This document shows, piece after piece, positions 12,421-15,132 of a stretch of DNA of 41,412 nt (position 1 is its first letter; the number at the start of each line of letters is the position of its first letter). Position numbers and translations under genes: made by a program. Origin of the DNA: a virus; the IMG/VR virus record IMGVR_UViG_3300046011_007859, positions 1 to 41,412 of that record. The stretch is one strand, 5' to 3'. The notes beneath the pieces were generated by a model that saw nothing but the letters and a program-made list of their open reading frames with translations, was not told where the DNA came from and did not search any database.

Positions 12421-12465
12421 AACTGGCACAAGCCCCTTGACAAATCAGGGAACATGTGGGATACT
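12421..12465 (+). promoter_or_regulatory. Early-type promoter of the DUF2828/RNA unit
   Basis: AACTGGCACA (12421-12430), perfect -35 TTGACA (12437-12442), -10 GATACT (12460-12465), 17-bp spacer. One of the best matches in the window. It leads into a 180-nt structured leader. Confidence 0.7.
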
Positions 12466-12481
12466 TAAAACGTGGAAGTCG

Positions 12482-12498
12482 TTAGGTCCATAACCTAA
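12482..12498 (+). promoter_or_regulatory. Leader hairpin near transcript start
   Basis: TTAGGT (12482-12487) pairs with ACCTAA (12493-12498) around CCATA; flanking GTC and GAC can extend it. It is the first of several helices in the DUF2828 leader. Confidence 0.5.
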
Positions 12499-12511
12499 AA
12501 AGACGCCATTT

Positions 12512-12572
12512 TAGATGAGACAGCAACCCTATGCACTAAACCGTTAATTTAGAAAAGCAAAAAACTCATCTA
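12512..12572 (+). ncRNA. Mini-tRNA-like element A (Asn-type loop)
   Basis: TAGATGAG (12512-12519) pairs perfectly with CTCATCTA (12565-12572). The interior begins ACAGCAACC and holds a 5-bp stem CTAAA/TTTAG with the 7-nt loop CCGTTAA, which has the size of an anticodon arm and would present GTT, though C replaces the universal U33. The same outer helix, CAGCAA box and A-rich 3' side occur in elements B and C. Here it sits in the 5' leader of the DUF2828 gene. Confidence 0.55.
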
Positions 12573-12652
12573 GCCTAAAGTTGATACAGCATACAAACTG
12601 TCTCCAAAACAACTTAGGTAAAAGACAACTTACCAATCAACTTGTAAAAACT

Positions 12653-14119
12653 ATGACTTTTATTACTGCTCTTAAATCTGAACTGAATACCACTGAGACT
12701 CTTAATGGAGCCAAGGCCTATAAGTCTACTCTTGATTCTTGTGTGGATCTTTTTGGCCAGATTGCGGCTTGTCGAAATGACATTAATAAGGCCCAAAAAC
12801 TTTTTGCTCTTGCTTTTAAGGAAGAGCCTGAGACTGCAACCCGTATTCTTTTCTGGGCACGCGATATTCGTGGAGGTCAGGGAGAACGGTCCATCTTCCG
12901 TCAACTTTTCAAGTATCTTGTTGAGGAAAATGGCGGAGTTGGGGTGAAACTAGTTTCTCTTGTTCCAGAATATGGTCGTTGGGATGACTTGCTTGTTCTG
13001 GAAAATACTTCTGCTTGGGAAACCGTTCTCAATGCAATTCAGGCACAACTTGATCTTGACCGTCTTCATCTGAAGACTGATGGTAAGGTTTCTCTCTTGG
13101 CGAAATGGCTGCCATCTATCAATGCTTCCAGCAAAGATAGCAAGCGTCTTGGTCGTAAGATTGCGGCCCATCTTGGTCTTTCTGAAAAAGAATACCGTAA
13201 GGTTCTGAGCAATCTTCGTACTCAAATTCGCATTGTTGAGCAATCAATGTGCTCCAAAGAATGGTCTGCAATTGACTATTCCAAGGTGCCTTCCCGCGCT
13301 GCATTTATGTATCGCAAGGCATTCCAGAAGCAAGATGGTGAGCGTTATGCCCAATATCTGAGTGCTGTTGAAAAGGGTGAAGCAAAAATCAATGCTTCAA
13401 CGCTGTATCCTTATGATATTGTTGAACAGTATCTTTATAAGGGTGCCCGCAATGATAAGTCTATTGACCTTCAGTGGGAAGCACTTCCCAATTTTATGGA
13501 AGATAAACCTTTCAACGGTCTGGTAGTTGCAGATGTTTCTGGTTCGATGTATGGTCGCCCTATGGCGGTTTCTATCTCTCTTGCGATGTATATTGCAGAG
13601 CGCAATACTGCTCCTGTATGGAAAGATAAGTTCCTGACTTTTTCAGAGAGCCCTGAACTGCAAACTGTTGTTGGTTCTACCATTGGTAAGCGTATTGAGA
13701 ATCTTTCCCGTGCGGCCTGGGGTATGAATACTGACCTTATGGCAGTGTTCAAGACTGTTCTGAGTGCCGCAGAGAGCAACAATGTTGCACCTGAGGATAT
13801 GCCACAGAAACTAATTATTGTTTCTGATATGCAGTTTGATGAGGCATGTAGTTCTAATAAGAGAACTAACTTTGAACAAATTCAAAAACTCTACCGAAAG
13901 GCAGGTTATGATATGCCACAACTGGTTTTCTGGAATGTCAATGCAATTGGTGGCAACGTTCCTATGACTATCCACGATACTGGCACTTGTCTTGTGTCTG
14001 GTTGTAGTCCTTCGATTCTTAAGTCCATTATGACTGATAAAGTCGTTACCCCGGTTGACACCATGAACGATACCGTTTATAGTGACCGTTATGCGGCTAT
14101 TGGGGAGGTTTTTGCTTAG
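12653..14119 (+). CDS. DUF2828 protein (TROVE + von Willebrand A, Ro60-like)
   Basis: 488 residues from ATG 12653, chosen because MTFITALKSELNTTETLNGA matches the usual DUF2828 beginning; a longer frame from TTG 12581 runs through the structured leader. N-terminal helical repeats (AARDIRGGQGERSIF-type pattern WARDIRGGQGER, PEYGRWDDLL) form a TROVE-like ring; the C-terminal vWA domain carries the MIDAS DVSGSM (about residue 295-300), later T and SD residues. TROVE proteins (Ro60, Rsr) bind Y RNAs and misfolded RNAs. The gene is embedded in repeated RNA elements on both sides, which makes an RNA partner likely. Binding itself is inferred. Confidence 0.85.
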   Translation: MTFITALKSELNTTETLNGAKAYKSTLDSCVDLFGQIAACRNDINKAQKLFALAFKEEPETATRILFWARDIRGGQGERSIFRQLFKYLVEENGGVGVKLVSLVPEYGRWDDLLVLENTSAWETVLNAIQAQLDLDRLHLKTDGKVSLLAKWLPSINASSKDSKRLGRKIAAHLGLSEKEYRKVLSNLRTQIRIVEQSMCSKEWSAIDYSKVPSRAAFMYRKAFQKQDGERYAQYLSAVEKGEAKINASTLYPYDIVEQYLYKGARNDKSIDLQWEALPNFMEDKPFNGLVVADVSGSMYGRPMAVSISLAMYIAERNTAPVWKDKFLTFSESPELQTVVGSTIGKRIENLSRAAWGMNTDLMAVFKTVLSAAESNNVAPEDMPQKLIIVSDMQFDEACSSNKRTNFEQIQKLYRKAGYDMPQLVFWNVNAIGGNVPMTIHDTGTCLVSGCSPSILKSIMTDKVVTPVDTMNDTVYSDRYAAIGEVFA

Positions 14120-14126
14120 ATAAATA
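14119..14126 (+). promoter_or_regulatory. Probable late promoter of the RNA cluster
   Basis: GATAAATA, one base from the T4 late consensus, begins at the last base of the DUF2828 stop. With T4 spacing, transcription would start near 14132, one base before element B. Confidence 0.5.
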
Positions 14127-14132
14127 AACACA

Positions 14133-14182
14133 TAGATGGTTCAGCAATTCTCATATGTTTTGGGTACATAAAAGACCATCTA
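14133..14182 (+). ncRNA. Mini-tRNA-like element B (Pro-type loop)
   Basis: TAGATGGT (14133-14140) pairs perfectly with ACCATCTA (14175-14182), followed by G. Inside: TCAGCAATT, then a 5-bp stem TATGT/ACATA (14154-14158/14166-14170) with loop TTTGGGT. The loop has T33, anticodon TGG and G37, the state expected for tRNA-Pro(UGG). There is no D or T arm; total length 50 nt. Same frame as elements A and C. Confidence 0.6.
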
Positions 14183-14187
14183 GTTTC

Positions 14188-14301: not shown

Positions 14302-14303
14302 TT

Positions 14304-14351
14304 TAGGTGATTCAGCAATTTAATTACTTGCAATGTAAAAAAAATCATCTA
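14304..14351 (+). ncRNA. Mini-tRNA-like element C (Cys-type loop)
   Basis: TAGGTGAT (14304-14311) pairs with ATCATCTA (14344-14351; one G-U), followed by G. Inside: TCAGCAATT and a 4-bp stem TTAC/GTAA with loop TTGCAAT (14328-14334), which would present anticodon GCA. No D or T arm. Begins 2 bases after the tRNA-like RNA, while element B ends 6 bases before it, so B and C flank it. Confidence 0.6.
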
Positions 14352-14360
14352 GTTTTAGTC

Positions 14361-14760
14361 GTGGTTGAGGGGCCACTTATCGCAAAATTCTGGAGAAATC
14401 CGGTCTTTTGATTAAATCCTAATTTTATTAGGTTGGCGGGTTGGCCTCCGCTGATTCTCTTAAAATATAATTGAACGTATGGAACTAGCGAGAGGAAAAC
14501 TCTTGAGGGAACGTAAGCAAAAAAAAAGGTGATTTGTGTTCAACCTGCTTACTACGAGTCAATTATTAAAATTTTGTTGGGATGTAGGCCTAGAAGCAGC
14601 CATCATCTAAGGAGTAGAACACGCACCAGAGCTGCAAAATGCTTGCTAATGTCGGGCCTATAGGTGGCATATACAAGTGATGTGGTGAGGGAAAATGTGG
14701 GTTCTTTAGGCGTAGTAGCACACCAACACTAAAAGTATCCTTTTATAAATACATTATAAC
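14361..14760 (+). ncRNA. Large structured RNA with 23S GTPase-centre-like hairpin
   Basis: No ORF of note. Visible helices: GTGG/CCAC (14361-14376); CTGGA-GAAA-TCCGG with a GNRA loop (14390-14403); AATCCTAAT/ATTAGGTT (14415-14434); GCGG/CCGC (14437-14451); a long-range ATAATTGA/TCAATTAT pair (14467-14474 with 14559-14567) enclosing GTAAGC/GCTTAC with AGGT/ACCT; and TAGGCC/GGCCTA (14586-14591/14655-14661). Segment 14580-14613 matches the 23S rRNA L11-binding hairpin (H43) at 30 of 34 positions from memory. Size and a tRNA-rich phage location recall large phage RNAs such as GOLLD or ROOL; membership not established. Confidence 0.6.
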
Positions 14761-14779
14761 TATTAAATCAGGAGGTGTT
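14725..14779 (+). promoter_or_regulatory. Late promoter in the loop of an SD-sequestering hairpin
   Basis: TATAAATA at 14744-14751 is a perfect late-promoter match. AACACT (14725-14730) can pair with GGTGTT (14774-14779; one G-U), covering part of the strong ribosome site GGAGG (14771-14775). Late transcripts (start ~14757) lack the 5' arm. Confidence 0.6.
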
Positions 14780-14782
14780 TAA

Positions 14783-14827
14783 ATGTCAAGTGATTGGGAA
14801 ATTCTAATGTCAGACTGGGTTTTTTGA
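14783..14827 (+). CDS. Very short ORF, possible +1 frameshift product to 14900
   Basis: 14 codons (MSSDWEILMSDWVF) with a strong RBS GGAGG 7 bases before ATG and a perfect late promoter upstream. It stops at TTT-TGA; a +1 shift there opens a frame continuing DPGLNKTDRHGSINNNPFVK to the stop at 14898-14900 (38 residues in all). TTT TGA resembles the prfB CTT TGA shift site. It could equally be a one-base frameshift mutation. Confidence 0.4.
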   Translation: MSSDWEILMSDWVF

Positions 14828-14931
14828 TCCAGGTCTAAATAAAACCGATAGACATGGTTCTATCAACAATAACCCCTTTGTGAAAATTGGGAATTTTTAG
14901 GAATTACTGGTTTTTATGTTTGGGGTTTTAT

Positions 14932-15005
14932 GGTGCCGAAGCTTAATGGATAAGCAGCTGTCTTCTAAACAGTCGTTAGTGTGCGTTCGAGCCGCACGGG
15001 CACCG
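14932..15005 (+). tRNA. tRNA-Arg(TCT)
   Basis: Acceptor GGTGCC pairs with GGCACC (position 7-66 is a G-G mismatch), D arm GCTT/AAGC, anticodon arm GCTGT-CTTCTAA-ACAGT with anticodon TCT, T arm GTGCG-TTCGAGC-CGCAC, discriminator G, no encoded CCA. tRNA-Arg(UCU) is a common cyanophage tRNA. A8 instead of T8 and the acceptor mismatch are slightly odd. Confidence 0.85.
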
Positions 15006-15048
15006 CTGAGTATAAAAGTCTAATAAAATTCGACTAAATACTTTTACC

Positions 15049-15132
15049 TTAGATAATTCGCACTTCTTTAAGGTAAGAATTGGGCTCTTTTTGAGCCCTT
15101 TTCTATTATAAATAGTATTGCGAATTATCTAA
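15049..15132 (+). promoter_or_regulatory. 14-bp inverted repeat enclosing terminator and late promoter
   Basis: TTAGATAATTCGCA (15049-15062) is the exact reverse complement of 15119-15132. In between lie an intrinsic terminator (15082-15102) and a perfect late promoter TATAAATA (15107-15114; predicted start ~15120, at the 3' arm). The 3' arm runs into the ribosome site AAGGAG of the HNH gene. Readthrough RNA would fold and hide it; late RNA would not. A competing pair TTACCTT/AAGGTAA (15044-15050/15070-15076) overlaps the 5' arm. Confidence 0.75.
15082..15102 (+). terminator. Intrinsic terminator of the RNA unit
   Basis: GGGCTC (15082-15087)/GAGCCC (15093-15098), loop TTTTT, followed by TTTT. 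Ends the transcription unit that starts at 12421. Confidence 0.8.

Follow-up and report, generated by a model that had tools for sequence, protein, structure and literature searches.

A putative Ro/Y-RNA-type locus built around a DUF2828 protein and a recurrent helix-CAGCAA RNA module

Introduction

The human autoantigen Ro60 and bacterial Rsr are TROVE-domain proteins that bind Y RNA as well as the 3' ends of misfolded RNA. Ro-like proteins and YrlA-like RNAs are already known from phages. TROVE proteins occur in a few jumbo phages (PMC7824862), a Ro60-related protein was found in a Vibrio jumbo phage (PMC7765460), and mycobacteriophage records already annotate DUF2828 members as 'Ro-like RNA binding protein'. 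For Listeria phage CKA15_055, an HHpred match to Deinococcus Rsr was reported and Y RNAs were suggested among three highly transcribed nearby regions; as far as the accessible part of that account goes, it proposes no motif, structure or regulation, leaves small interfering RNA (siRNA) or coding RNA as options, and credits mycobacteriophage Y RNAs to Chen et al. 2014 (PMC12282133). CKA15_055 itself probably carries a DUF2828 gene, judging from related phages: gp57 of a P100/A511-type relative is a DUF2828 protein and has three CAGCAA hairpins upstream. Our literature search on DUF2828 found nothing on point. Here we analyze a DUF2828 locus in a 41,412-nt stretch of viral DNA (IMG/VR record IMGVR_UViG_3300046011_007859, 41.4 kb), hereafter the window, which has cyanophage affinities and whose DUF2828 gene is 73% identical to gp339 of Synechococcus phage B23.

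Judging from co-occurrence and a predicted fold, the locus very probably encodes a ribonucleoprotein (RNP) of the Ro/Y-RNA type together with its RNAs. As far as the literature we searched extends, the common recognition motif and its distribution across DUF2828 loci of bacteria and phages look new, as do the bare hairpin arrays, the copies at start codons and the Y-like RNAs whose arms follow tRNA order.

Results

The DUF2828 protein has a predicted Ro60-like fold

Pfam assigns the 488-amino acid (aa) protein to DUF2828 and DUF7788. As the preliminary description of this DNA had stated, it is a single large protein with the metal ion-dependent adhesion site (MIDAS; DxSxS...T...D) of a von Willebrand factor A (vWA) domain, and MIDAS residues D294, S296, S298, T360 and D392 are invariant in 48 sequences. 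An AlphaFold (AF2) model made from an alignment of 48 homologues (all but one, 47, taken from viral contigs) reached a predicted local distance difference test score (pLDDT) of 90.7 and a predicted template modelling score (pTM) of 0.91; given 7 close relatives instead, pLDDT was 57. The eight top-ranked Foldseek matches to this model in the PDB were all Ro60/TROVE (E 9e-8 to 8e-6; template modelling (TM) scores 0.45-0.61), among them 1yvr, 2i91, complexes of Ro60 with misfolded pre-5S rRNA, a TROVE domain and the Ro60 of Thermus phage phiLo, and the best pure vWA match lay far below them (E 4e-3). The model joins a helical-repeat ring to a vWA domain, as Ro60 and Rsr do, and here too RNA genes adjoin the protein gene. 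The protein is thus predicted to be a Ro60-like helical ring with a vWA domain. Unlike Ro60/Rsr, it falls in Pfam under DUF2828/DUF7788 and not TROVE, and a profile search of PDB sequences returned no Ro60, giving vWA and chance matches alone. Because sequence profiles fail to join DUF2828 and TROVE, we regard the protein as Ro-like by fold and as no TROVE member by profile.

Among the 50,697 phage records searched, 676 contain DUF2828, and bacterial genomes have it at over 560 loci. The DUF2828 proteins of Bacillus, Mycobacterium, Listeria, Vibrio, Felix O1-like and Campylobacter phages show 37-45% identity. In Campylobacter phage NCTC12673, another DUF2828-like match, shorter than the first, lies elsewhere in the genome (6549-7076 of the record). 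The gene is also frequent in Clostridia and other bacterial assemblies (L304-L383), with up to 10 CAGCAA hairpins per locus, some of them enclosing tRNA-like sequence.

A helix and CAGCAA module accompanies DUF2828 genes

The repeated element of the window is a hairpin in which a helix is followed by CAGCAA. Three copies had been recognized (12511-12573, 14133-14182 and 14303-14352); a fourth, at 12578-12643, had been overlooked, so that two copies stand in the leader and two downstream of DUF2828 (Table 1). At the place of the second leader hairpin, cyanophage loci L118-L120 carry the compensatory variant AAGTTAAT/ATTAACTT instead of AAGTTGAT/ATCAACTT. In other cyanophage loci these hairpins likewise surround DUF2828, usually with two copies in the leader and as many as 4 behind the gene, and alternate with tRNA-like RNAs; in the window and its relatives the gaps between hairpins and tRNA-like RNAs are 1-5 nt. 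Folding energies (z -2.4, -2.9, -0.2 and -0.8) would be insufficient by themselves for the claim, which rests on comparison across genomes.

Such elements recur consistently near DUF2828 homologues elsewhere, where the preliminary description had suggested looking. Bacillus, Mycobacterium, Listeria, Vibrio, Felix O1-like and Campylobacter phages show the same pattern with quite different helices; the consensus reads helix, 0-3 nt, CAGCAA, free loop and complementary strand, usually followed by G. To quantify the association, CAGCAA beside a helix of at least 7 or at least 8 bp was counted on the gene strand and on the opposite strand in 80 viral and 80 bacterial DUF2828 loci, with permuted hexamers as controls. 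Bacterial loci gave 249 same-strand against 18 opposite-strand cases at 7 bp (76 of 80 loci; control mean 18.5) and 175 against 4 at 8 bp (71 of 80 loci; control mean 5.9). The viral set gave 148 gene-strand against 25 opposite-strand cases at 7 bp, where 59 permuted hexamers average 21 and the two highest-scoring are register shifts of CAGCAA itself, and 97 against 9 at 8 bp; with the motif relaxed to CAGC[ACT][AT], 60 of 80 viral loci have it close to the gene. The base directly 3' of the helix, a feature unused in the search, is G in 207 of the 249 bacterial cases. CAGCAA and this G are conserved and the loops are free. Across ten phage records, 40 cases fall in the 110 kb near DUF2828 (within 5 kb) and 39 in the 943 kb elsewhere, an 8.8-fold enrichment.

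Module hairpins also lie at translation starts. At 23 loci, some of them mutual duplicates, the hairpin ends at most 40 nt from the DUF2828 start codon or overlaps it, and in Vibrio phage ValKK3 it encloses both the Shine-Dalgarno (SD) sequence and the start codon.

As a separate observation, viral loci L152 and L182 (also L153 and L176), which are without CAGCAA, have a possible CTGCAA variant module just behind DUF2828, in which the helix is followed by G and the loop measures about 140-150 nt.

A tRNA-like RNA carries the module in place of its anticodon arm

The tRNA-like RNA first noticed in the window was confirmed at 14188-14301 and, beyond what had been described, holds the same module as the hairpins. 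It has an acceptor stem with 7 of 7 pairs, a D-arm and a T-arm, and ends in the acceptor stem. Within it the order of the module is swapped: the 3' strand of the hairpin (..ATCTTG) precedes its 5' strand (AAGAT..CAGCAATT), and a short loop joins the two. Because the module is permuted in this way, the RNA retains tRNA ends.

A search for a module placed between acceptor/D-arm and T-arm found about 40 distinct RNAs. In 32 of these tRNA-order RNAs, 95.6% of cells are paired against 70% in shuffles (acceptor 99.6%, D 91.4%, module 90.6%, T 99.4%), 19 of 22 pairs vary on both sides, and compensatory base changes occur in all four helices. The acceptor, module and T stems served in selecting these RNAs and the D-stem did not; the unselected D-stem covaries too, and RNAalifold recovers the acceptor, D and T stems unaided. 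In a covariance model, most tRNA-order RNAs score above 48 bits and ordinary tRNAs at most 46.5 bits; the window copy, itself in the training set, scores 84.8 bits. Matches beyond the training set lie in non-cyanophage contigs L163 and L183 and in bacterial assemblies L307, L314 and L348.

Like YrlA (RF02553), this RNA is modular, combining a putative Ro-binding stem, a role that the module would fill, with a tRNA-like body of D-, T- and acceptor arms. RNAs of FADO, LeBron and TP1 share the YrlA topology, some loops there enclosing a circularly permuted tRNA, and the permuted tRNA-like RNA of LeBron scores 39.8 bits against Rfam YrlA (E 1.6e-7), below the 69-bit cut-off. In contrast to YrlA, the RNAs of the window and about 40 relatives are in tRNA order, end in the acceptor stem and have the module at the site of the anticodon arm. 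The ends of YrlA pair as the Ro-binding stem, which is so in the bare hairpins and not in the tRNA-like RNA of the window, and a covariance search with RF02553 gave no match in the window.

Layout of the unit and a separate GAC-like RNA

From a promoter-like block (12411-12465) to a terminator-like hairpin, the unit comprises the 488-aa gene, four hairpins, the tRNA-like RNA, an RNA resembling the GTPase-associated centre (GAC) of 23S rRNA, and tRNA-Arg (Table 1). Where a promoter had been proposed for the start of the unit, a promoter-like sequence lies beside a 39-nt block at 12411-12449 with a second copy at 12031-12069. Promoter-like matches of this kind are not in excess (9, against 6.8 in shuffles), which makes the 39-nt repeat the better evidence. 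The intrinsic terminator was located as described. The tRNA-Arg, listed earlier among the RNAs around the gene, is present and is an ordinary tRNA; it is the sole Rfam match in the window at gathering score, and raising E to 10 adds two chance matches.

Table 1. Features of the DUF2828 unit (window coordinates)
Feature	Coordinates	Strand	Remarks
Promoter-like TTGACA-17-GATACT	12437..12465	+	10/12 match, TG ahead of second hexamer; overlaps repeated 39-nt block
Leader hairpin 1, TTAGATGAG-aCAGCAAcc...-CTCATCTAG	12511..12573	+	most cyanophage relatives have a comparable copy or copies ahead of DUF2828
Leader hairpin 2, AAGTTGAT-aCAGCAta...-ATCAACTT	12578..12643	+	3' strand stops 10 nt before ATG
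DUF2828/DUF7788 protein, 488 aa, predicted Ro60/TROVE-like fold and vWA MIDAS	12653..14119	+	Pfam, alignment, AlphaFold, Foldseek
Downstream hairpin, TAGATGGTT-CAGCAAtt...-GACCATCTA	14133..14182	+	
tRNA-order Y-like RNA: acceptor, D-arm, Ro-type module replacing anticodon arm, T-arm	14188..14301	+	
Module within tRNA-like RNA, TATCTTG-TT-AAGATA...CCGCAATT	14226..14252	+	helix and motif of the hairpin, order swapped
Downstream hairpin, TTAGGTGATT-CAGCAAtt...-AATCATCTAG	14303..14352	+	
Stand-alone 23S rRNA GAC-like RNA, 90-nt insert in H44	14565..14736	+	not tied to DUF2828
tRNA-Arg(TCT), ordinary	14932..15006	+	
Intrinsic terminator-like hairpin GGGCTC-TTTTT-GAGCCC, then T-rich tail	15082..15098	+	

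About 400 nt of structured RNA had been described downstream of the gene; as one fold this is weak (z -1.3), and its strongly conserved part is the GAC-like RNA. Around 14579-14618 it matches E. coli 23S rRNA at about 85-89% over 35-39 nt, and 14579-14615 with 14706-14724 copy the L11/thiostrepton-binding core (H42-H43-H44), including the H43 core TTAGAAGCAG and GCGTA..AG of H44 within a closing H42. Positions that we take to be the equivalents of A1067 and A1095 (E. coli numbering) are kept in the alignment. It differs from the 23S GAC in being stand-alone, with its own covarying closing stem and an insert in H44 whose stem covaries as well. We found 86 distinct viral examples with inserts of 25-365 nt (window; L004-L048, L192-L266); in phages GAP32, XaC1, Aeromonas 4_4572 and others the RNA is unannotated and intergenic, often in arrays of tRNA and transfer-messenger RNA (tmRNA). 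Contamination by 23S accounts for the matches in L031 and several small phage records; it does not explain those in the isolates GAP32, XaC1 and 4_4572, in which the RNA lies between genes. We rejected the RNA as a Ro partner because, of about 180 DUF2828 loci, it is present only at that of the window and its identical contig. A literature search for a phage GAC-like RNA found no description. It may possibly act as a decoy for L11, translation GTPases or stringent factors. A resemblance to the sarcin-ricin loop near 14480-14510, seen by eye, was dropped as a plain hairpin.

Several neighboring features were noted. The promoter-like block (AACTGGCACAwGCCCCTTGACAAATCAGG; 12031-12069, 12411-12449 and 11285-11309) precedes successive small genes as well as the DUF2828 leader. 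At 14784-14925 a short open reading frame (ORF) behind a strong AGGAGG site ends TTTTTTGA and apparently resumes in another frame (FDPGLNKTDRHGSINNNPF...), as in a decayed or frameshifted small gene, and an HNH gene adjoins the unit at 15148. Elsewhere in the window, a ThyX thymidylate synthase gene is split by an intein carrying an HNH endonuclease domain (30238-31950), and genes resembling those of NAD salvage encode a cytidylyltransferase-Nudix fusion and a nicotinamide phosphoribosyltransferase (3322-6694). Relatives of the window contain group I introns, apparently within tRNA genes (L037 8184-8381; L043 1206-1405).

Discussion

The preliminary description had suggested that a Ro-type RNP is encoded here, that it has several RNA partners and that it may regulate itself, and this picture gains from the recurrence of the elements at DUF2828 homologues, the Ro60-like model and the start-proximal hairpin in distant phages. 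The step from co-occurrence to binding of the RNAs by the DUF2828 protein is an inference, and several points weigh against it. The TROVE Pfam profile finds no match in the protein, and the TM scores of 0.45-0.61, at 11-15% identity, make the fold match to solved Ro structures a moderate one. In YrlA, the consensus of the Ro-binding stem is a different one, without a CAGCAA motif. By stringency, a quarter to a half of viral loci are missing the motif near the gene, and CTGCAA showed no enrichment over controls in the whole viral set. Furthermore, the hairpin sets were picked by presence of a helix, so pairing inside them is not independent evidence.

Other explanations would account for the RNAs differently. 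The hairpins could be processing or stability elements (RNase sites, protectors of mRNA 3' ends or transcript punctuation) with no need of the DUF2828 protein, and their alternation with tRNA-like RNAs at gaps of 1-5 nt does fit tRNA-style punctuation. We consider this unlikely, since hairpins occur in 76 of 80 bacterial DUF2828 loci, are 8.8-fold less frequent away from the gene in the ten phage records, and keep CAGCAA and the 3' G while their loops vary freely. The tRNA surroundings also lend something to the view that DUF2828 works as a vWA chaperone or adaptor with no connection to RNA, the RNAs hitchhiking as the gene sits in tRNA clusters: several phage DUF2828 loci lie within tRNA arrays, and vWA domains serve many protein complexes. 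However, Ro60/TROVE matches far outrank pure vWA (E 1e-7 vs 4e-3), and LeBron and ValKK3 have hairpins without annotated tRNA genes at the locus, which leaves this view highly improbable. Several similar copies at one locus and the HNH gene next to it might instead suggest recombination or mobile-element sites; the strand bias (175 vs 4), helices that differ between copies with pairing retained, and the position of a copy at the start codon make this the least credible of the three, with hardly any chance of being right.

On the Ro/Y-RNA reading, the family-wide co-occurrence of the module with DUF2828 suggests that the protein most likely recognizes an AAG...CUU-G or UAG...CUA-G helix and then, 0-3 nt on, a CAGCAA that is presumably unpaired. 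The module would be presented both as bare hairpins and in tRNA-order RNA, there replacing the anticodon arm, and with that replacement the tRNA-order Y RNAs could mature as tRNAs. The tRNA-like RNAs might then serve as Y RNAs, that is, as tethers or gates holding the Ro ring, and their tRNA body might attract tRNA-handling enzymes such as nucleases and maturation or modification enzymes; by analogy with bacterial YrlA/RYPER (Rsr-YrlA-PNPase), in which PNPase is tethered by the tRNA-like domain, a tether or gate for RNA processing is a tentative proposal that we think somewhat doubtful. Given the placement of a hairpin near the start codon, beside the ribosome binding site, Ro protein left unbound when the co-transcribed RNAs are saturated could repress its own mRNA, and we see the case for DUF2828 autoregulation as evenly poised. 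Equally balanced, taken as a whole, is the proposition that DUF2828 defines, alongside TROVE/YrlA, a second Ro/Y-RNA system of very large size, with a code of its own (helix plus CAGCAA), Y RNAs that include true tRNA-order molecules, and self-regulation by titration between Y RNAs and the start-codon hairpin.

For DUF2828, a domain of unknown function, these results offer a likely function class and a concrete candidate RNA ligand motif. Phages of laboratory hosts, Felix O1-like coliphages and mycobacteriophage LeBron among them, would allow a direct test of Ro autoregulation, and the natural variants of Y RNA, tRNA-order ones included, may bear on the origin of Y RNAs from tRNAs via circular permutation. 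The GAC-like RNA is a separate opening, in that many phages apparently carry a stand-alone copy of the 23S rRNA segment responsible for binding L11 and activating translation GTPases. Together, small RNAs that share a hairpin and a relative of Ro60 suggest that phages and bacteria harbor a large family of RNA-protein machines, most of which has gone unnoticed.

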